16,783 nucleotides of DNA. Origin: an uncultured Ideonella sp. (GTDB lineage: Bacteria > Pseudomonadota > Gammaproteobacteria > Burkholderiales > Burkholderiaceae). The stretch spans positions 1 through 16,783 of the forward strand of contig CAMLGG010000101.1 in NCBI GenBank assembly GCA_946479475.1. The letters are read 5' to 3'. The notes beneath the pieces are model-generated. The model saw nothing but the letters and a program-made list of their open reading frames with translations, ran no database searches and had not been told where the DNA came from. Below, one piece after another: positions 399 through 15,128 of the stretch. How positions within the stretch are numbered: position 1 is the stretch's first letter; every line of letters begins with the position of its first letter. Made by a program: the position numbers and the translations under genes.

Positions 399-935
399 TC
401 AGCTCCAGTCGTCCATGTCGTGCCGGATCGTCTTGCGGTTGGCGATCAGCTCCTCGATGGATGGCTCGTTGGCCAGCGCGCGGCGGATGGCCAGCTTGGT
501 CGCCTCGTAGTTCGTGCGGTACATGTCCTTCTTGTCGAGGTTCTCGTCCTTCGCGCAGCGCGGGTCGATCCAGACCAGGCTGATGATGCAGAGCTCGTTG
601 ACGAGCTGCTGCGGGATCACGCCCTCGATCACGCTGTCGAGCACCGCATCGGCTGTCGCGCTTTGCACCACCCCGCCGAAAAGGTCGATGTTGGCCGCGT
701 CCTTCAGCGTCACCTTGGGCACCATGATGGTGGCGGGACGGACCAGCTGGTTGCAGGCCCGGATGGCGAACATCGCGGTGTGGCCCTTGCTCTGCGCCAT
801 CATGTTCGCGAAGGCCGCGCCGACCGGGCCGTCGGTGCGGCCGATCAGGATCTCCGGCATCGCGTCGGTGGCCTGCCCCTCCTTCGCCAGCACGGTCGCT
901 TCGCCGGCGTGGAAGATGTAGTTGTTGCTGGTCAT
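399..935 (-). CDS. Formaldehyde-activating enzyme paralog (Fae-like) lacking the active-site histidine
   Basis: A 178-residue protein of the Fae fold. Family landmarks shared with the canonical Fae at the other end of the window include GEATV near residue 11, the EILIG strand, AAFANMM, RPATIMVPKVTLKD and, near the C terminus, YEATKLAIRRAL. Canonical Fae condenses formaldehyde with H4MPT using a histidine in the AHIDLIIG segment. Here the aligned segment reads AMPEILIG, so the histidine is replaced by methionine. It also has a short insertion (DPRCAKDENLDKKDMY) before the final helix. I infer it is a Fae2-type homolog whose activity may be altered or absent; it may act as a sensor, a scaffold or on another substrate. 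It is the last gene of the fhcBADC run, 55 nt after fhcC. The start has an AGGAG 10 nt upstream, the same arrangement as canonical fae. The family is certain; the function is not. Confidence 0.93.
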   Translation of the reverse strand: MTSNNYIFHAGEATVLAKEGQATDAMPEILIGRTDGPVGAAFANMMAQSKGHTAMFAIRACNQLVRPATIMVPKVTLKDAANIDLFGGVVQSATADAVLDSVIEGVIPQQLVNELCIISLVWIDPRCAKDENLDKKDMYRTNYEATKLAIRRALANEPSIEELIANRKTIRHDMDDWS

Positions 936-990: not shown

Positions 991-1806
991 TCAGCCCACG
1001 AAGATCAGCTCACCCTTGCCGCCCACGGCGCGGTCGCCGAGATGCCGCTCGATGGGACGCCGTGGCAGCGCCTCGAAGGGCCCGCCGTGGCGCGCCAGGT
1101 TGCGAGCGAGCAATTGCCAGAAGACGGCAGCCTCGGCACCCGCCGGCACGAAGGTGCTCGGCACCGCGGCCGCATCGCGCCCGCCGGCGAGAACCAGGCT
1201 GCCGCGCCGCATGGCATAGCCGGCGTGGGCGCCCGCCTTGCCCCCCAGCAGCAAGGTGCCGGCCACCAGCCGCGAGGCGAAGAAGTCGCCGGCATCGCCG
1301 AACACCACCACCGTGCCGCGGCGCATGCGGTCGCCGAAGCGATCGCCGACACGGCCCTTGACGACCATCGTGCCGCCGCGCATGCCGTCCATGCTGCCCG
1401 GCAGCGTGCTCGCGCCGAAGTCGCCGGCGTCGCCTTCGACCACCAGCGCGCCGCCGGCCATCTCGCAGCCCAGCAGCAGGCCGGCGTGGCCCTTGATGCG
1501 CAGCTCGCCGCCACGCATGCCGCCGCCGGCCTGGTCGCCCGCCGAACCCTCGACCACCAGGCGGCCGCCCTCCATCTGCCAACCGATCCGGTCGACGCGT
1601 GAAAGATCGCCCTCCAGCACCAGCCCGTCGACGCCGTCGGCGAGAACATCGAAGAACTCCGCTAGCGGGACCCTCGCATGGCCGCAGCCGACCGGCAGCC
1701 GCCCGATTGCCACCGCGTCCAGGCCGGCCAGGGCCGCGGGCGTGATGCCCCGAAGATCCAGCCGCAAGGCCGGCGCCCGCCGCAGTTGAAGCCTCCAGCC
1801 GCTCAT
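991..1806 (-). CDS. fhcC: Formyltransferase/hydrolase complex subunit C (formylmethanofuran dehydrogenase subunit C-like)
   Basis: A 271-residue protein. From about residue 75 to 220 it is built of repeated turns with glycine pairs (VVEGDAGDFGAS, VVKGRVGDRFGD, VVFGDAGDFFAS, LLGGKAGAHAG). These are the right-handed beta-helix repeats of FwdC/FmdC/FhcC, related to the GXGXG domain of glutamate synthase. In the bacterial Fhc complex, subunit C is structural: it packs against the hydrolase FhcA and the transferase FhcD and helps hold the furan carrier. It lies 70 nt downstream of fhcD, unlike the overlapping fhcB/A/D genes, and 55 nt upstream of the fae paralog. The ATG is preceded by a purine-rich GAGGGTGGA. 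Family assignment is firm from repeat pattern, length and position. Confidence 0.95.
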   Translation of the reverse strand: MSGWRLQLRRAPALRLDLRGITPAALAGLDAVAIGRLPVGCGHARVPLAEFFDVLADGVDGLVLEGDLSRVDRIGWQMEGGRLVVEGSAGDQAGGGMRGGELRIKGHAGLLLGCEMAGGALVVEGDAGDFGASTLPGSMDGMRGGTMVVKGRVGDRFGDRMRRGTVVVFGDAGDFFASRLVAGTLLLGGKAGAHAGYAMRRGSLVLAGGRDAAAVPSTFVPAGAEAAVFWQLLARNLARHGGPFEALPRRPIERHLGDRAVGGKGELIFVG

Positions 1807-1876: not shown

Positions 1877-2797
1877 TCATGCCTTCACCTCCGCGCCCAG
1901 CAGCTTGTGCAGGTGGAAGTGGTAGGGCCCCAGCTTGCCCCCGTAGTTGCCGGCCGAGATGCGCAGCAGGCCGCCTTGCGCGCCGATCGCGATGCCGGCC
2001 TCCATGCCGGCTCGCATGGCGGCGGCCACGTCGCCCTCGGTCAGGCCGTCGATCACGATCTCGAGCACGCAGCGCGTCTCGGCAGTGAGCTCGCTGTTCT
2101 TCACCAGGCCGACCAGGCTGGGGCAGAAGGCATCGTTGGTCGAGGCACCGAGCGCCGGGTACTTGCTGCCCACCTTGGAGCCCGATCGCACGACGCCGCC
2201 CGGGAAGGGCATGACAACGTTGGGCAGCCGCCGCATGGCCGCGACCGCCGCCTCGGCCACGGCCAGCGCGGCCGGCGTGTCCCGCGCGAGCAGCAGCAGG
2301 TTGCCGCCGCCGACCGCCTTGACCACGGCCGTCGTCTCCTGCGCGACGAACTCGCCGTCCATCACCGGGATGCGCCAGTAGCGCACGCCATCGATCATCT
2401 TGGCGATCTGCCAGCCGTCGCCGAAGAAGCGCAGGTTCTTGCCGAGCGCGACCTGCTCGCCCTCGGCGATGCCCGCGTAGGCCGCGGTGGTCGGGCAGGT
2501 CAGCACGCACTGGCCGATGCGCCGCTCCAGCTGCCTGGTCAGCTCCTTGCCCGACATCGCGAAGAACAGCACGCTCTGGCCCGGCCGACCGTCGGGCGTC
2601 TCTTCGGGGCCCAGCTCGCGTTCGATGCCGGCCTCGCAACCGCAGGCGATCACCGACGTGGCGAAGCCAGTGGCGGCAACCGCGGCGTGGCGGGCCCATT
2701 CGAGGTTGTGGGCGGTGATGACCACCCGCGTGGCCTTCATCGGAAAGGCTTCCGCGAAGCCGTCGTCGATGGTCACGCCATTGCGCTGCAGGCTCAT
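1877..2797 (-). CDS. fhcD: Formylmethanofuran:H4MPT N-formyltransferase (Fhc subunit D, Ftr-like)
   Basis: A 306-residue protein, close to the usual Ftr length of about 300. It carries the Ftr features: the N-terminal segment MSLQRNGVTIDDGFAEAFPMKATR, broken here as MSLQRNGVTIDD then GFAEAFPMKATR; the glycine-rich stretch VVKAVGGGNLLLLA in the middle; VMPFPGGVVRSGSKVGSKY; and the C-terminal ISAGNYGGKLGPYHFHLHKLL. In the oxidative direction it transfers the formyl group from N5-formyl-H4MPT to the methanofuran-type carrier, which then swings to FhcA for hydrolysis. The ATG (2797-2795) sits inside the fhcA stop as ATGA, so the genes are probably translationally coupled. The longer open frame upstream is an alternative frame inside fhcA and is not coding. 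Assignment is firm. Confidence 0.97.
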   Translation of the reverse strand: MSLQRNGVTIDDGFAEAFPMKATRVVITAHNLEWARHAAVAATGFATSVIACGCEAGIERELGPEETPDGRPGQSVLFFAMSGKELTRQLERRIGQCVLTCPTTAAYAGIAEGEQVALGKNLRFFGDGWQIAKMIDGVRYWRIPVMDGEFVAQETTAVVKAVGGGNLLLLARDTPAALAVAEAAVAAMRRLPNVVMPFPGGVVRSGSKVGSKYPALGASTNDAFCPSLVGLVKNSELTAETRCVLEIVIDGLTEGDVAAAMRAGMEAGIAIGAQGGLLRISAGNYGGKLGPYHFHLHKLLGAEVKA

Positions 2798-4470
2798 GTC
2801 GAGGCCTCGAAGCAGGCCGCCGGCAGCAGCCTGCCGCCGTTGCAGCAACTGCAGAGTTCGTCGTGGCCGATGGCGACGTGGTCGAAGTTGACCGAGCCGT
2901 GGCGCGCCATGTGGGCTCGCAGCGTCTTCTCGATGCCGCGGTCGTAGTCGGGCTCGACGAAGTGGGTGCCGCCCGCCGGCACGGCCGTGACGCGACCGGC
3001 GCGCGCGACGAGCCGGCCATCCTTGAAGACGTACTCGGGCGTGGTGAACATGCGCTCCTTGTCGGGCTCCTCGCGATAGACCGCGATGTCGGCCGCGGCG
3101 CCCGGGCCGAGGTGGCCACGGTCCTTCAGGCCGAGCAGCCGGGCCGGCCCGGCGCGGGTCATGATGGCGATCTCGTTGAGCGAAAGCTCGCGCGTGATGG
3201 AGCGAAGCGCGGCATGCGCCGCGACATCGGGATGCAGCTTCGCCAGCTGCTCCTCGCGGAAGCTCCTGTCCATCAGCAGGCGGATCAGGTGCGGGTAGCT
3301 GGTGAAGGGGCCGCCGTTCGGATGGTCGGTGGTGAGCACGACGCGCCACGGATCCTGCACGAGCAGGAAAAGCTCCAGCCCGATGACCCACTGAAGCGCG
3401 TTCACGTAGCTCTGCTCGCGGTAGCGGAAGGGCACGACACCACAGCCCGCCTCGCACTCGATGTCGGCGCCCGTCCACTTGCGCGGGTTGGCCAGGCCCG
3501 ATTGCGCGTGCTGGCGCATCGTGTCGCCCGAGGCCGTCACCGTCTGGCCGAACATGATCTGGCCGACGTCGATGCTGACGTTCGGATGCGCGTTCACCGC
3601 CTCGGCCAGCTGCAGCGCGGCCGAAGAGAACTTCTTCGGGCCCTCGGTGCCGTAGGCGTGGAATTGCACGTGCGTGAGGTGCCCGCGCAGGCCCTCGAGC
3701 GCCGCGATGGTCTCCAGCGTCGAGCCGATGTTGCCCGCCACGCCGAGGTTGCTGCCGTGGATGTGCAGCGGATGGGGCACGCCCAGCTCGTGCAGCGCGC
3801 GGGCGAGCGTGTGCACCACCTGGCGCGGCGTGATGCGCCAGTGCGCGTGCTCCTCGTCGACGTCGAGCTTGCGCTGGTTGAACTTGAAGGCCGAGATGCC
3901 GCCCGGGTTCACCACCTTCACGCCCATCGCCTTGCTGGCGTTGATCGTCCAGGCGGCGTAGTCGCGGATGCGCTCGAAATCCCACCCTTCGGCGAGCATG
4001 CGCAGGAAGAGCTCGTCGTTGCCGAGCATCACGTAGGCGCCGTGGTCGAGGATGGGGATGTCGCCCATCTCCATGTGCGCATGGCGCGCGTTGCCGGCCA
4101 CCATCGCCGGCTCGAACGCGGCCGTGTAGCCCATCTCGACATAGCGGTAGCCGGTGGCCAGCGTGCCGGGGGCGCAGGTGCCGCAGGAGGGCAGCTCCAG
4201 CGGATTGGCCGGCAGCGCGATCGGGTTGCCGTTGGCGCGATGGTCCTCCGGCAGCAGCATGCGCGAGAGGTTGACCTTGCCGCCGCCGATGTGGGTGTGC
4301 ATGTCGATGCCGCCCGCCATGACGACACAGCCGGTCGCGTCGATCTCCTCGTCGACCGGGTTCGCGTCCGCCGGCACGATGCGGCCCTCGCGCCAGACCA
4401 CGTCGCGCAACTCGTCGACGCCGTGGGCCGGATCGACGACCCGGCCGCCTCGCAGGCGGATGCTGCTCAT
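2794..4470 (-). CDS. fhcA: Formyl-methanofuran hydrolase subunit A (amidohydrolase-type, FwdA-like)
   Basis: A 558-residue amidohydrolase-superfamily protein matching FwdA/FmdA/FhcA. Visible features are the metal-binding HxH in GGIDMHTHIGGG (His58 and His60), HIHGSNLG in the middle, and TTDHPNGGPFTSYP with the expected catalytic aspartate. Near the C terminus comes ARAGRVTAVPAGG, then a terminal cysteine-rich LCSCCNGGR. In Fhc it hydrolyses the formylated furan carrier to formate and free amine; no redox step is needed. Both ends overlap neighbours by 4 nt: its ATG overlaps the fhcB stop and its TGA overlaps the fhcD ATG. This argues for coordinated stoichiometric synthesis. The protein begins MSSIRLRGGRVVDPAHG, the normal N-terminal beta-strand of this family, so the start is secure. 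Confidence 0.97.
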   Translation of the reverse strand: MSSIRLRGGRVVDPAHGVDELRDVVWREGRIVPADANPVDEEIDATGCVVMAGGIDMHTHIGGGKVNLSRMLLPEDHRANGNPIALPANPLELPSCGTCAPGTLATGYRYVEMGYTAAFEPAMVAGNARHAHMEMGDIPILDHGAYVMLGNDELFLRMLAEGWDFERIRDYAAWTINASKAMGVKVVNPGGISAFKFNQRKLDVDEEHAHWRITPRQVVHTLARALHELGVPHPLHIHGSNLGVAGNIGSTLETIAALEGLRGHLTHVQFHAYGTEGPKKFSSAALQLAEAVNAHPNVSIDVGQIMFGQTVTASGDTMRQHAQSGLANPRKWTGADIECEAGCGVVPFRYREQSYVNALQWVIGLELFLLVQDPWRVVLTTDHPNGGPFTSYPHLIRLLMDRSFREEQLAKLHPDVAAHAALRSITRELSLNEIAIMTRAGPARLLGLKDRGHLGPGAAADIAVYREEPDKERMFTTPEYVFKDGRLVARAGRVTAVPAGGTHFVEPDYDRGIEKTLRAHMARHGSVNFDHVAIGHDELCSCCNGGRLLPAACFEAST

Positions 4471-5756
4471 GCCGGCTGCCCCTGCCTGGACTCGGCGATC
4501 GCCTGCGCTATCCACCCCGTCACTTCGGCCACGCCAGGGATGCCCTGCTGCTGGACCTGGAACAGCGGCAGCATCACGACTCCGTCGGTGCGAAACAGGT
4601 GCCCCGGAGTCCCGATGCCCGGCGTCGAGACGGGGATGAACACGGTGTCGGTCACCGGGCCTTGGGGCGCCGTCGCCGGGTGCCCGAGGATGATCTTCGG
4701 CACGGCCGTGGAAGGCATCGGCGAAGCGGCACCGAAGCTGGACACCCACAGCAGCGAATCGACGGCACCACCCGCGAGCAGGCGGGCCCCGTCGAATCGA
4801 AGCGGATCGTGCTCGAGTCCCGATGGCCCGGCCCGCGATCGCAAGGGCAGGCCCGAGAGCCAGGCGAAGGTCTGGTTGACCGTGGCCGCGCCATCGCCAC
4901 CGCCTATCCACAGCATGGCTGCGCGGCTGCGCAGGTTCAGCTCGCCCACGCACCGGTACAGGCCCTCCAGGATCAAGGCGCCCTGCGGGGGCAGCGCCGC
5001 TACCGCGCCGATGAGCACGGCGTAGCGGGCAGCATGCAGGCGCTCGGCAAGCCCTGCCAGGCCGGCAGGGGCATCGTGCGCCACGCGGCCGCCGACCAAT
5101 GCGCCCAGCTGCGCGACGAGGTCGAACAGGTCTTCCCCCGGCGCCACCGTCTCCACCGCCACTCGCGGCAGGCCGGCGAACGCGGCCTGTTCGCCGGCCG
5201 CACCACCGAGCAGCACGACATGCCGCTCGGGCCCGTCCTCTTCGCCGAAACCGCAACGCTCGAGCAGGCGCGGCGCGTAGCGCGTGGGCAGGCTGCCGAC
5301 GAAGACGACCAGGTCGGCGCGCGTGCGCACCTCGGCCAGCGTGGTGGTGAATCCGCCGTGGTCCTGCAGGGTGCGCAGGGATTGCATCAGGTCGCCGCCC
5401 CGCGCGGCGTCGCAGATCGCGCCTGTCGAACACGCCAGCCGGTACAGCGCGCGGGCGCCGGCGACGTCGGTGCCCATCCCGCCGAACAGTGGCTGCCGGC
5501 TGTCCAGGAGGATGCGCGCGGCGGCGGCGACGGCGGCATCGAGGTCGCAGGGCCGGCCGTCGATGCTCGGCAGGTCGCCCGACGGGCCGGCAGGGAACTG
5601 GCCGAGGGCGCGCTGCGCCAGCGGGCACTGGCCGCCTGCCAGGGCCAGCATGCCGTCCGGACCCGGCGCGACGGCCAGGTCATCGCAGAGCAAGGGGCAG
5701 AAGGGGCAGGTCCAGGGCGCGGGCACGGTCCCGGCGGGAGAAGCGACGGCAGTCAT
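4467..5756 (-). CDS. fhcB: Formyltransferase/hydrolase complex subunit B (FwdB/FmdB-like)
   Basis: A 429-residue protein, as expected for FhcB, homologous to the catalytic tungsten/molybdenum subunit of archaeal formylmethanofuran dehydrogenase. The bacterial complex does not oxidise formylmethanofuran, and its B subunit is regarded as structural. This copy keeps an N-terminal CPFCPLLCDD (Cys17, Cys20, Cys24) and a later GGQCPLAQRAL (Cys44), a spacing like an iron-sulphur site. The CHGP segment that carries the metal-ligating cysteine in archaeal FwdB seems to be replaced around AICDAARGGD. I chose ATG 5756. The in-frame GTG at 5786 lies within a consensus sigma-54 -24 element, so it would be at or upstream of the promoter. 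A GTG at 5726 is a further option. No Shine-Dalgarno is visible. It is the first gene of fhcBADC and overlaps fhcA by 4 nt. Confidence 0.94.
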   Translation of the reverse strand: MTAVASPAGTVPAPWTCPFCPLLCDDLAVAPGPDGMLALAGGQCPLAQRALGQFPAGPSGDLPSIDGRPCDLDAAVAAAARILLDSRQPLFGGMGTDVAGARALYRLACSTGAICDAARGGDLMQSLRTLQDHGGFTTTLAEVRTRADLVVFVGSLPTRYAPRLLERCGFGEEDGPERHVVLLGGAAGEQAAFAGLPRVAVETVAPGEDLFDLVAQLGALVGGRVAHDAPAGLAGLAERLHAARYAVLIGAVAALPPQGALILEGLYRCVGELNLRSRAAMLWIGGGDGAATVNQTFAWLSGLPLRSRAGPSGLEHDPLRFDGARLLAGGAVDSLLWVSSFGAASPMPSTAVPKIILGHPATAPQGPVTDTVFIPVSTPGIGTPGHLFRTDGVVMLPLFQVQQQGIPGVAEVTGWIAQAIAESRQGQPA

Positions 5757-5770
5757 GTGGCCGCTGTGAC

Positions 5771-5785
5771 GCAAACCATGTGCCA
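5771..5785 (-). promoter_or_regulatory. Sigma-54 (-24/-12) promoter for fhcB
   Basis: Read on the minus strand, 5785-5771 is TGGCAC-ATGGT-TTGC, an exact match to the TGGCAC-N5-TTGC core of RpoN promoters. The GG and GC dinucleotides have the required 10-nt separation. With the -12 C at 5771, transcription would start near 5759, two or three nucleotides before the fhcB ATG at 5756. The site is intergenic, correctly oriented, and in the same cluster as a sigma-54-dependent activator gene. Confidence 0.75.
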
Positions 5786-5811
5786 CTGCGGCATTCCGCT
5801 GCCGGGCCCTG

Positions 5812-5830: not shown

Positions 5831-5967
5831 GCCCGCCTGTCTCGGCCGGGCCGGCCAGAACTGGAACACTATGTCGCGTTTCTGGCGGCTTCCAGGCGCC
5901 CGGCGAGTTGGCACGAATCGTGATGCAGCAGCGCCATGCTGTCGATCACAGGGCCCCGTCGAAGGGA

Positions 5968-12297: not shown

Positions 12298-12983
12298 GCC
12301 AGGGACAGCTCGTTCAGTCGGGCATCGAGCGCCGCCTCCAGCCCCTTCGGCGAGCTCACGACCTGGCAGAAGTCGATCTGGCGCAGGCGCTCGACGTTCT
12401 CCAGCTCTATGCGCCGCGGCCTCAGCGTGACCCAGTCGTGCGGTGACTTGGTGACCACCACCGGCTCGGTGTCGCAGGCGAACACGATGCCCAGGATGCC
12501 CAGCTTGCCGGCCTGCGCGAACATGTTGGTCGGCAGCGAGTCGCTGATCCCGTAGGCACACTTGGCCACGGTGTTGCTCGTGGCCGGGGCCACCACGACC
12601 GTGTGGTAGATGTCCTCGTACAGCATCCCCACCGGGACGCCGCTGGCGGTGCGATCCCTCAGCACGCGGAAGTGCTTCTTCAGCTCCTCGATGCGCAGCT
12701 TGTACAGCGGCAGCACCTCCTCGGCCGCGGCGGAGAGAAACAGGTCCACCGCCGGCAGCCGGGCCGCCAGTGCCATGGACTCTTCGAGGTAGTGGCCCGA
12801 GCCGGTCACGCACCACGCGAAGCGCGAGCGCGGCGGCGAATCGAGCAGCGGCAGTTCTTCTTCGGCGCCCTCGCGCGCGGCACGGGCCCGAGGCTCGGCG
12901 CCCGGAGCCTGCGCGTCAGTCGGGGTGGGAGATCTCGATGTGAAGCTTGTGGAGCTTGCGGTAGAGGGTGTTTCGGCTGACAT
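12276..12983 (-). CDS. dmrB: Archaeal-type flavoprotein, dihydromethanopterin reductase (DmrB-like)
   Basis: A 235-residue protein of the archaeal flavoprotein family to which bacterial DmrB belongs. DmrB uses bound flavin to reduce dihydromethanopterin to H4MPT. The core starts near residue 56 with RFAWCVTGSGHYLEES, followed by MLYEDIYHTVVVAPATSNTVAKC split as MLYEDIYHTV and VVAPATSNTVAKCAYGI (flavin-phosphate binding) and LGILGIVFACD. The first 55 residues are a low-complexity Ala/Ser/Pro/Glu stretch unlike the rest. No ATG, GTG or TTG lies between ATG 12983 and the core, so the gene must overlap the 3' end of the activator gene by 68 nt (86 nt if ATG 13001 is used). Its 3' end overlaps the DHPS-like gene by 22 nt. 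Confidence 0.88.
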   Translation of the reverse strand: MSAETPSTASSTSFTSRSPTPTDAQAPGAEPRARAAREGAEEELPLLDSPPRSRFAWCVTGSGHYLEESMALAARLPAVDLFLSAAAEEVLPLYKLRIEELKKHFRVLRDRTASGVPVGMLYEDIYHTVVVAPATSNTVAKCAYGISDSLPTNMFAQAGKLGILGIVFACDTEPVVVTKSPHDWVTLRPRRIELENVERLRQIDFCQVVSSPKGLEAALDARLNELSLAWNTSSS

Positions 12984-15006
12984 CCAGCGCCTTGGCGACA
13001 TTGCTCACGTTCCAGCGGTGCATCTCCAGCATCTGCAGCAGCACCTGCCGTTCGTTGGCTTGTATGGGGTTGAGCTTGACGGCCGCGGGCACCTCGTTGG
13101 CAGCGACCTCGGCCGGCGCAGAGGCCGGGGCCACGGCCCCGCTGGCGGCAGGCAGGCGAGGCAGAGCGCGCTCGCTGGCCAGTTGCGCCGGGGCATGCAG
13201 CGTGACCAGGGACGGCAGGTGCTCGCGGGTGATGGTGCGGCCGTCCGCCAGCGCCGCGGCGCTGCGAAGCACGTGGCGCAGCTGGCGGATGTTGCCGGGC
13301 CAGGGATGGTCCATCAGCAGGGACTGCGCCTCGGGGCTGATCGTGGCCTTCGGCCCGGCCTCGCTCTCCAGCGCGGCCATGATGATGTCCAGCCGGTCGC
13401 TGCGCTCGCGCAGCGAAGGCAGCTGCAGCTCGATGCCGGCCAGCCGGTAGTACAGGTCCTCGCGGAAGCTGCCTTCCTTCACCAGCGTGGGCAGGTGCCG
13501 GTGGCTGGCGCTGATGAGCTGGAAGTCGACCGGCAGCGTCTCCTCCGTACCCAGCGGCGTGACCTGCCGCTCGTCCAGCACCCGCAGCAGGCGGGCCTGC
13601 AGCGCGAGCGGCATGTCGGCGATCTCGTCGAGGAACAGCGTGCCCCCGTCGGCCTGCAGCACCTTGCCGCGACGGCCGGTGCGCTGCGCGCCGGTGAAGG
13701 CGCCGGCGCGGTAGCCGAAGAGCTCGGCCTCGATCAGCGTCTCGGGCAGGCTCGCGCAGTTCACGGCCACGAAGGCGCCGCTGGCATGCGGGCTGGACTC
13801 GTGCACCGTGCGGGCGAAGATCTCCTTGCCTGCGCCCGTCTCCGCGCACAGCAGGATGGGCGTGCGGCGGGCGATCACGCGGCGCGCCGTCTCGAGGTGG
13901 GCCACCAGCTGCGGATCGCGGAAGGTGCTGGAGGCCGTCACCGGACGCTGGACCGGCGCCCGCTGCCGTGAAGAGGCCGGCGCCTCGGCGGTGATGACCA
14001 TGGCGGCCTCGCGATCGTGGCCGCGCTCGCCTGCGGGCTGGTGCCCGCGGTCGGAAGCCGCGTGCTCCATCGCCGGCCGCCGCGCCACCGCGAAGAAGCG
14101 CAGCGCCGCCCCGGCGCGGTAGGTGACCACCGGATGGAAGGACGAGGACGCACTGCGGGTGAGGATGTCCTCCAGCGAGTTCTGGAAGATGTCGTCGACA
14201 CGCCGCATTCGGATGTCATCCATCGACTGCAGGCCGAGCTGGAACAGCGCGCTGCGGTTGGCCGCGAGCACGCGGCCGTCGTCGGACACCGCGAGCTTGC
14301 CTTCGTGCAGCGTGTAGACGAACTCCGGCCGGCTGTGGAAGTGCAGCGGATGGGCGTCGCGGAACTGCAGGTCGATCAGGCGGTTCTCGATCATGCGCGC
14401 CGTCATGCCCAGCAGCACGAGCACGTGCTGCTGCATCAGGCTGGAGCGGCTGGTCACGTCCAGCACCGCGGCGATCTTGCCCGTCGGGTCGCACACCGGC
14501 ACGGCCGAGCAGGTGAGCTGGGTGAACTGGTTGTAGAAGTGGTCTTCACGCCGCACGGACACCGGCGCGCCGGAAGCCAGGCAGGTGCCCATGCCGTTGG
14601 TGCCGGCCTGCACCTCGCTCCACACGCCGCCGCATCGCAGGCCCAGCGGGGCCGCCTCGGCAGCGAACTCGGGCGAGGAGACCATGTGCACGATGACGCC
14701 GTCGGTGTCGGTCAGGACGACGGCGGTCTCCATGTCGGCGAGCTGCTGGTACAGCGTCGTCATCTCGTAGCGGGCGCAGCGGATCACGTCGGCCCGCCTC
14801 GCACGCGCCTGCTCCAGCTCGGCCGCGGAGACGATCGCCGGCTCGCGCGGCTTGCACGGGTCGAGCTGGTACTCGTTCAGGCAGCGGCCCCAGGACCGCA
14901 CCAGCACTTCGTTGGCGCTTTCGGAATAGTTGCCACGCACGAGCTGCAGGATGCGCTCGGCGTGCCTGTCGGCGATGCGTGCCGACTCATGCAGGGTCAT
15001 GACCAT
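12916..15006 (-). CDS. Sigma-54-dependent activator (GAF-AAA+-Fis, AcoR-like) heading the H4MPT biosynthesis operon
   Basis: A 696-residue enhancer-binding protein. The N terminus has RSWGRCLNEYQLDP (about 37-50), typical of AcoR-type activators, and then a GAF sensor region to about 215. A PAS-like stretch (LAVSDDGRVLAANRSALFQLGL, in two parts LAVSDDGRVLAANR and SALFQLGL) lies around 240-265. The AAA+ domain has an atypical Walker A, AETGAGKE, near residue 385, the sigma-54-contacting GAFTGA near 435, Walker B GGTLFLDEI near 458, and REDLYYRLAG. The C terminus has a Fis helix-turn-helix (WNVSNVAKALDVSRNTLYRKL). GGAGG precedes ATG 15006; ATG 15000 is also possible. It probably senses a small molecule tied to C1 metabolism and activates the -24/-12 sites next to fhcB and folB. 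Its 3' end overlaps dmrB. Confidence 0.95.
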   Translation of the reverse strand: MVMTLHESARIADRHAERILQLVRGNYSESANEVLVRSWGRCLNEYQLDPCKPREPAIVSAAELEQARARRADVIRCARYEMTTLYQQLADMETAVVLTDTDGVIVHMVSSPEFAAEAAPLGLRCGGVWSEVQAGTNGMGTCLASGAPVSVRREDHFYNQFTQLTCSAVPVCDPTGKIAAVLDVTSRSSLMQQHVLVLLGMTARMIENRLIDLQFRDAHPLHFHSRPEFVYTLHEGKLAVSDDGRVLAANRSALFQLGLQSMDDIRMRRVDDIFQNSLEDILTRSASSSFHPVVTYRAGAALRFFAVARRPAMEHAASDRGHQPAGERGHDREAAMVITAEAPASSRQRAPVQRPVTASSTFRDPQLVAHLETARRVIARRTPILLCAETGAGKEIFARTVHESSPHASGAFVAVNCASLPETLIEAELFGYRAGAFTGAQRTGRRGKVLQADGGTLFLDEIADMPLALQARLLRVLDERQVTPLGTEETLPVDFQLISASHRHLPTLVKEGSFREDLYYRLAGIELQLPSLRERSDRLDIIMAALESEAGPKATISPEAQSLLMDHPWPGNIRQLRHVLRSAAALADGRTITREHLPSLVTLHAPAQLASERALPRLPAASGAVAPASAPAEVAANEVPAAVKLNPIQANERQVLLQMLEMHRWNVSNVAKALDVSRNTLYRKLHKLHIEISHPD

Positions 15007-15112: not shown

Positions 15113-15128
15113 TGGCCCGCATATTGCA
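15113..15128 (+). promoter_or_regulatory. Sigma-54 (-24/-12) promoter for the folB-like gene
   Basis: TGGCCCGCATATTGCA matches the RpoN consensus TGGCACG-N4-TTGCW with one mismatch (C for A in the -24 box). GG at 15114-15115 and GC at 15126-15127 have the required 10-nt separation. The predicted start is near 15139. It lies in the intergenic region divergent from the sigma-54 activator gene. Confidence 0.7.

Follow-up and report, generated by a model that had tools for sequence, protein, structure and literature searches.

The window, a stretch of 16,783 nucleotides, holds a minus-strand cluster of fhc genes, a sigma-54 (RpoN) promoter core next to the first of them and, further along, a gene for a sigma-54 activator.

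399..935, minus strand: formaldehyde-activating-enzyme-like gene, last in the presumed operon (TIGR03126, 138.6 bits, above cut-off)
991..1806, minus strand: fhcC (TIGR03122, 208.6 bits, above cut-off)
1877..2797, minus strand: fhcD (TIGR03119, 427.9 bits, above cut-off)
2794..4413, minus strand: fhcA, the stretch searched (TIGR03121, 675.7 bits, above cut-off, matching the profile from position 19)
4467..5756, minus strand: fhcB, formylmethanofuran dehydrogenase subunit B-like (TIGR03129, 149.3 bits, below the cut-off of 327.8)
5756..5761, minus strand: predicted transcription start region, placed from the -12 element at C5771 and the conserved distance from -12 to ATG
5771..5785, minus strand: sigma-54 (RpoN) -24/-12 promoter core TGGCAC-ATGGT-TTGC (-24 element 5780-5785, -12 element 5771-5774)
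5866..5874, no strand assigned: candidate activator-binding palindrome ACACTATGT, one mismatch to ACACWSTGT
12916..15006, minus strand: sigma-54 activator with GAF, AAA+ sigma-54 interaction and Fis-type HTH domains (PF00158, 203.1 bits; PF02954, 44.8 bits)

The fhcB product had no Pfam match, and we call it FhcB-like from the below-cut-off TIGR03129 match together with its fhcA, fhcD and fhcC neighbours. The true start of fhcA lies upstream of 4413, and the five fhcBADC-fae genes are probably co-transcribed. The window begins, next to the fae-like gene, with what may be an array of DNA repeats: peptide runs such as LSLSKGP and PELVEGP recur in overlapping plus-strand frames (13-510 and 57-1361).

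The promoter core is exact. In the window scan, TGGCACATGGTTTGC at 5771-5785 (minus strand) showed no mismatch to the fixed bases of the RpoN core, with the GG of the -24 element and the GC of the -12 element ten bases apart in TGGCAC-N5-TTGC, and it was the only exact match, the site at 15113-15127 (plus strand) carrying one mismatch. The core sits in the 211-bp gap between fhcB and a hisA/hisF-like gene (end 5968) on the same strand, is oriented toward fhcB and ends 14 nt upstream of the fhcB ATG (5756-5754). A sequence-only reading of this DNA had claimed an RpoN core matched at all ten fixed positions, intergenic and correctly oriented, and was right on each point. Because shuffled windows held a mean of 1.58 sites with one mismatch allowed, the site is weak evidence if the window is taken alone. 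Judging by its closest matches, the window probably comes from a Burkholderiales relative, and the RpoN DNA-binding domain (Sigma54_DBD) was present in 16 of 16 relatives searched.

We gathered 92 fhcB loci, comprising the window, 19 loci from a named collection and 72 from whole-genome searches of an order, two families and a genus, and located the FhcB N-terminus in 91 of them. Counts refer to 56 distinct loci that have a window-type fhcB with upstream sequence, after exclusion of duplicates (L021, L061, L067, L069, L079 and L089), one locus at a contig end (L074) and one with no N-terminus (L077). L022 (43% identity) was placed in the window's group on account of its site, a choice that favours the conservation reading by one, and L060, with in-frame ATGs at both 14 and 17 nt, was taken as 14. 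L012 comes from a record labelled as a Desulfovibrionaceae MAG; with an fhc cluster and promoter like those found in Variovorax-type bacteria, its contig has possibly been misbinned.

Both the core and its position are conserved. A site was called where at least eight of the ten fixed bases matched, GG and GC being compulsory, and the match ended 12-15 nt before the ATG. Such -24/-12 sites occurred in 53 of the 56 distinct loci, against 0.33 expected from dinucleotide shuffles and none on the reverse strand, and 35 loci still had one when all ten bases were demanded (0.0 expected), although the sampled loci are mutually related and the counts are not counts of independent events. This conservation rules out a chance origin of the core. 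A motif-blind alignment of 42 less redundant upstream regions, with a mean conservation of 0.32 across all columns, reached at least 85% only in TGGCA, TTGC, the ATG and the FhcB coding anchor. The sequence-only reading had staked its promoter on conservation of TGGCAC/TTGC in relatives, and these bases and their distance to the ATG are indeed kept, while nearly all of their surroundings change.

Three loci depart from the ATG at 12-15 nt. L062 (genome G419) has no promoter site, and its activator orthologue is likewise missing; L071 (G471) has an activator orthologue, palindromes and an exact core, but no in-frame ATG nearby, its first listed in-frame start being a TTG 68 nt downstream; and L076 has its ATG at 18 nt. 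The more distant fhcB group gave one site among 28 loci at the loosest threshold (0.05 expected; the reverse strand also gave one) and none among the 28 at both stricter thresholds.

Spacing to the start codon separates a conserved promoter from a conserved coding sequence. Across the 54 loci having an in-frame ATG, the -12 C precedes it by 12 nt in 7 loci, 13 in 14, 14 in 31, 15 in 1 and 18 in 1 (12-15 nt in 53), and the stretch from that ATG to the CPFC block of FhcB varies from 4 to 39 codons. If FhcB started at an NTG overlapping the core (GTG 5786 here, an overlap that the sequence-only reading had seen correctly), the 15-mer could be kept as coding sequence and its sigma-54 likeness would be incidental. 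A spacing of 14 nt, found in the window and most Variovorax loci, does put the NTG overlapping the core's first T in the FhcB frame, but at 12, 13 or 15 nt, the spacing in 22 of 54 loci, that codon leaves the FhcB frame while the motif stays the same, L016 has a stop codon between that NTG and the FhcB ATG, and the conserved columns coincide exactly with the sigma-54 bases. As the spacings span all frames, the motif is kept as DNA and not as a reading frame; we reject a coding reason for its conservation on this ground and regard an FhcB start within the core as extremely improbable. The pattern argues that selection acts on the promoter and on how far it stands from the ATG rather than on a frame across the core.

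In most loci the same ATG appears to be the only usable start. Between 9 nt past the -12 C and the conserved block of FhcB, 42 of 54 loci have no other in-frame ATG, GTG or TTG, which leaves a sigma-54 transcript without an alternative start of this kind in that stretch. GTG 5726, 44 nt past the -12 C and in frame with fhcB as the sequence-only reading had noted, was named there as a fallback start; those 42 loci, with no in-frame start codon downstream of the ATG, leave it unsupported, and we rejected it. The annotated FhcB start is worth checking in this light, the ATG adjoining the promoter being preferred to the NTG overlapping it.

Little room is left for a leader. With C5771 as the -12 base, +1 would fall at 5759 and the leader would be 3 nt, whereas starts at A5758 or A5756 would leave 2 nt or none (-24/-12 numbering relative to the start site as in the passages of PMC4842269). 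A pyrimidine occupies the canonical +1 in 48 of 54 loci, which would be unusual if RNA began precisely there. The RNA may begin at the A of the ATG or at a purine some four bases before it, and the leader would then measure about 0-4 nt. The fhcB mRNA would be leaderless or near-leaderless, and AUG, the start codon expected of leaderless mRNAs, is what the 53 loci have at 12-15 nt. A C at -1 precedes the fhcB ATG in 41 of 54 loci and is not diagnostic, being common in control genes too (65%).

Shine-Dalgarno enrichment was not clear at fhcB as a group. Anti-Shine-Dalgarno pairing of -4 kcal/mol or better was found at 39% of fhcB starts and 34% of shuffles, pairing of -6 kcal/mol or better at 22% versus 15%, and a Shine-Dalgarno-like 4-mer in 10 of 54 loci. 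Control genes of the same clusters ranged from 20 to 100% at -4 kcal/mol or better: fhcC (16/16), fhcD (92%, n=12), the kinase-like gene (16/16), the MfnB-like gene (12/12) and fae1 (3/3) were high, and MfnF-like (60%, n=10), fae-like (42%, n=12), fhcA (27%, n=11; start truncated) and hisA/hisF-like genes (20%, n=44; start uncertain) were low, the MfnF-like and fae-like values having no start-position reason, contrary to those of fhcA and hisA/hisF-like genes.

These figures bear on whether the promoter is real and yet most FhcB comes from a longer transcript, made from an upstream sigma-70-type promoter or by read-through, with the near-leaderless mRNA a minor species. The 211-bp gap and the upstream gene on the same strand give room for such a transcript, and L071 is a locus that apparently needs a leader. 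A longer leader, however, offers no explanation for the kept distance from -12 to ATG, and pairing at fhcB is close to that of shuffled sequence whereas fhcC, fhcD, the kinase-like and the MfnB-like genes reach 92-100%, a contrast weakened by the low values (20-60%) of fhcA, hisA/hisF-like, fae-like and MfnF-like genes. We consider predominance of a longer transcript unlikely and favour a start no more than a few bases from the ATG.

Sigma-54 enhancer-binding proteins include the NifA, NtrC and AcoR-like classes. The product of 12916-15006 has the parts of such a protein: an AAA+ domain, an intact GAFTGA loop at residue 435, a Walker B motif (GGTLFLDEI) at 454 and a Fis-type HTH; a Walker A pattern scan of the protein gave no match. 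GAFTGA is present in it and in all 42 of the relatives' rows listed. Orthologues at 60-76% identity were found in 47 of the 56 searched genomes with window-type fhcB; among the rest, G135 carries a 52% identical orthologue, seven genomes carry none, and G512 has a fragment lying at the edge of a contig. The orthologue lies in the same cluster in the nine Variovorax loci whose stretch reaches that far, and in L013.

A second sigma-54-like site, TGGCCCGCATATTGC at 15113-15127 (plus strand), lies in the intergenic stretch that separates folB from the activator gene, at a distance of 107 nt from the start of the latter, and Variovorax loci have TGGCCTGCATTTTGC on the folB strand, 97-120 nt from their activator starts; a loose site of this type was present in 22 of the 41 loci inspected, a set that includes some duplicates. 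Four more distant fhcB clusters share a conserved TGGCATRATAGTTGC facing away from fhcB (L173:2698, L174:2728, L175:2095 and L176:2184). It is followed after 29-54 nt by a gene with GHMP kinase domains (domain search made in L173), and the activator of these clusters is 44-50% identical.

The palindrome at 5866-5874 tracks the activator. Its centre lies some 110 bp before the predicted +1, and its 9-mer is identical in Variovorax loci L001, L004 and L014. We searched the 150 nt preceding the promoter for ACACWSTGT, allowing up to one mismatch, and found it in 46 of 46 loci whose genomes carry an activator orthologue (G135 included; one mismatch each in the window and L012), in one of six without (L075, genome G509, a fragmented assembly) and in about 2% of shuffles. 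Given few independent events, the link between activator and palindrome is good, not proven. At sequence level the locus thus pairs a GAFTGA activator with a predicted upstream binding site, and their co-occurrence, which is the basis for the assignment, suggests that the activator of 12916-15006 binds the palindrome at 5866-5874.

Palindrome and promoter together mark a single place in those of the 62 genomes that have the composite pattern. These number 35, each with one occurrence, always directly upstream of fhcB, and the reversed control had none; it is strict, being unmatched in the other 27 genomes, and the window misses it by one base. Among 399 genomes of the order it matched twice, at fhcB in G280 and about 170 bp from the fhcB match, facing away, in G186; the reversed control gave three matches, all in one genome.

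Another activator might nevertheless drive the promoter, the cluster's GAF-AAA-HTH protein controlling different targets, such as folB or cofactor genes, and the palindrome serving some other protein. Binding is read from co-occurrence alone, a weaker sigma-54-like site stands beside the activator gene (15113-15127), and four genomes (G015, G928, G1049 and G807; L179-L182) keep the fhcB sigma-54 site with neither palindrome nor orthologue, and have near fhc a different GAFTGA activator, 37-38% identical, possibly an exchange of activator under a kept promoter. Against this stand the co-occurrence of palindrome and orthologue (46/46 versus 1/6), the confinement of the composite to fhcB in all 35 genomes that have it and the HTH ends, which are nearly identical among closer orthologues and unlike those of the second type of activator. 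We judge control by a different activator to be rather improbable, and prefer the cluster's own.

We propose the following mechanism. Sigma-54 RNA polymerase would wait at TGGCAC-N5-TTGC (5771-5785) until the cluster activator (12916-15006), bound to the palindrome (consensus ACACWSTGT, here 5866-5874), reached it by DNA looping and opened it through ATP hydrolysis. The signal would perhaps be a C1 or formaldehyde-related cue received by the GAF domain. RNA would begin a few bases, if any, before the fhcB ATG, with a leader of about 0-4 nt and without a Shine-Dalgarno sequence, and the fhcBADC-fae genes would be switched on from the fhcB promoter. Taken whole, an activator-driven sigma-54 switch on fhcBADC-fae giving a leaderless or near-leaderless mRNA is, in our view, very probable.

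The fhcB layout has counterparts elsewhere in the same genomes. Of 1980 exact TGGCAY-N5-TTGC cores in 62 genomes, 203 have an ATG 12-15 nt further on and 93 have one at 26-29 nt, an excess to which fhcB itself contributes. Among 20 recurrent non-fhcB sites, picked for recurrence and not at random, 13 had a frame of at least 300 codons from that ATG and seven did not. Nine of these 13 look like genes for PotA-like ABC transporter ATPases with the core 13-14 nt before the ATG (L159, L160, L162-L164, L167, L168, L170 and L172), and L154 has the same ABC-type layout in a shorter frame; we grouped all ten by eye, and four ATPases that we tested had best matches to PhnT2/PotA-type models, all below cut-offs. 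The PotA-like genes resemble fhcB in having TGGCAY-N5-TTGC at this distance, with the ABC-type N-terminus within about ten codons of the ATG, and differ from it in function and in lacking the fhc composite pattern. The sequence-only reading had called the fhcB promoter an unusual case: a conserved core abutting the ATG bears this out, but with similar spacings before other genes, PotA-like ones included, the layout is less singular than that reading implied.

Several of the ten ABC-type genes (L154, L159, L160, L162-L164, L167, L168, L170 and L172) are preceded by TTGCATAC-like sequence. Related proteins in L153 (329-1621, plus strand) and L171 (3-1331, minus strand) have an ATG 13 nt after a sigma-54 core; neither had a Pfam match, and L153 had no NCBIfam match.

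Start-codon-fused sigma-54 promoters might be a recurrent gene class in Burkholderiales- and Rhodocyclales-type genomes, with the -12 element 12-15 nt before AUG in unrelated operons (fhc, PotA-like and others), a generalization that we advance tentatively and rate at somewhat below an even chance. If it is true, one stretch of DNA would serve as both activator-gated promoter and translation start, expression through the activator would be all-or-none and dependent on leaderless-type initiation, and formaldehyde oxidation could be tied to the state of the ribosome pool.

Each component at fhcB is of a known kind. Like other sigma-54 -24/-12 systems, fhcB has invariant GG and GC elements, a dedicated GAFTGA AAA+ activator and a candidate upstream palindrome; unlike the usual ones, it has its -12 element 12-15 nt from the AUG, with no room for a leader, and its target is tetrahydromethanopterin-linked formaldehyde oxidation. 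Leaderless mRNAs occur in Burkholderiales, according to passages on Burkholderia cenocepacia (PMC4603805) and Cupriavidus metallidurans (PMC7563307). The predicted fhcB transcript would resemble the mRNAs of those passages in having its 5' end at or near the start codon and a promoter element in place of the Shine-Dalgarno sequence, and differs from those of B. cenocepacia in having -24/-12 elements where a TA-rich motif is described (PMC4603805); the leaderless passages of the two papers make no mention of fhc genes. Sigma-54 control of fhc and a sigma-54-driven leaderless fhc mRNA were both absent from the matches listed in a literature search with subscription papers mostly outside its scope, which covered passages of PMC3616915, PMC12403871, PMC4842269, PMC5243855, PMC4603805, PMC7563307 and PMC9045368. 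The conserved union of these components at fhcB is, on that search, a new variation.

In Variovorax and other Betaproteobacteria common in the environment, the arrangement is a candidate for the master switch of tetrahydromethanopterin-linked formaldehyde oxidation; its binding site is predicted, and it seems to have a single target in each genome. It would join sigma-54 control to near-leaderless translation, a combination preserved among the genomes sampled from two families.
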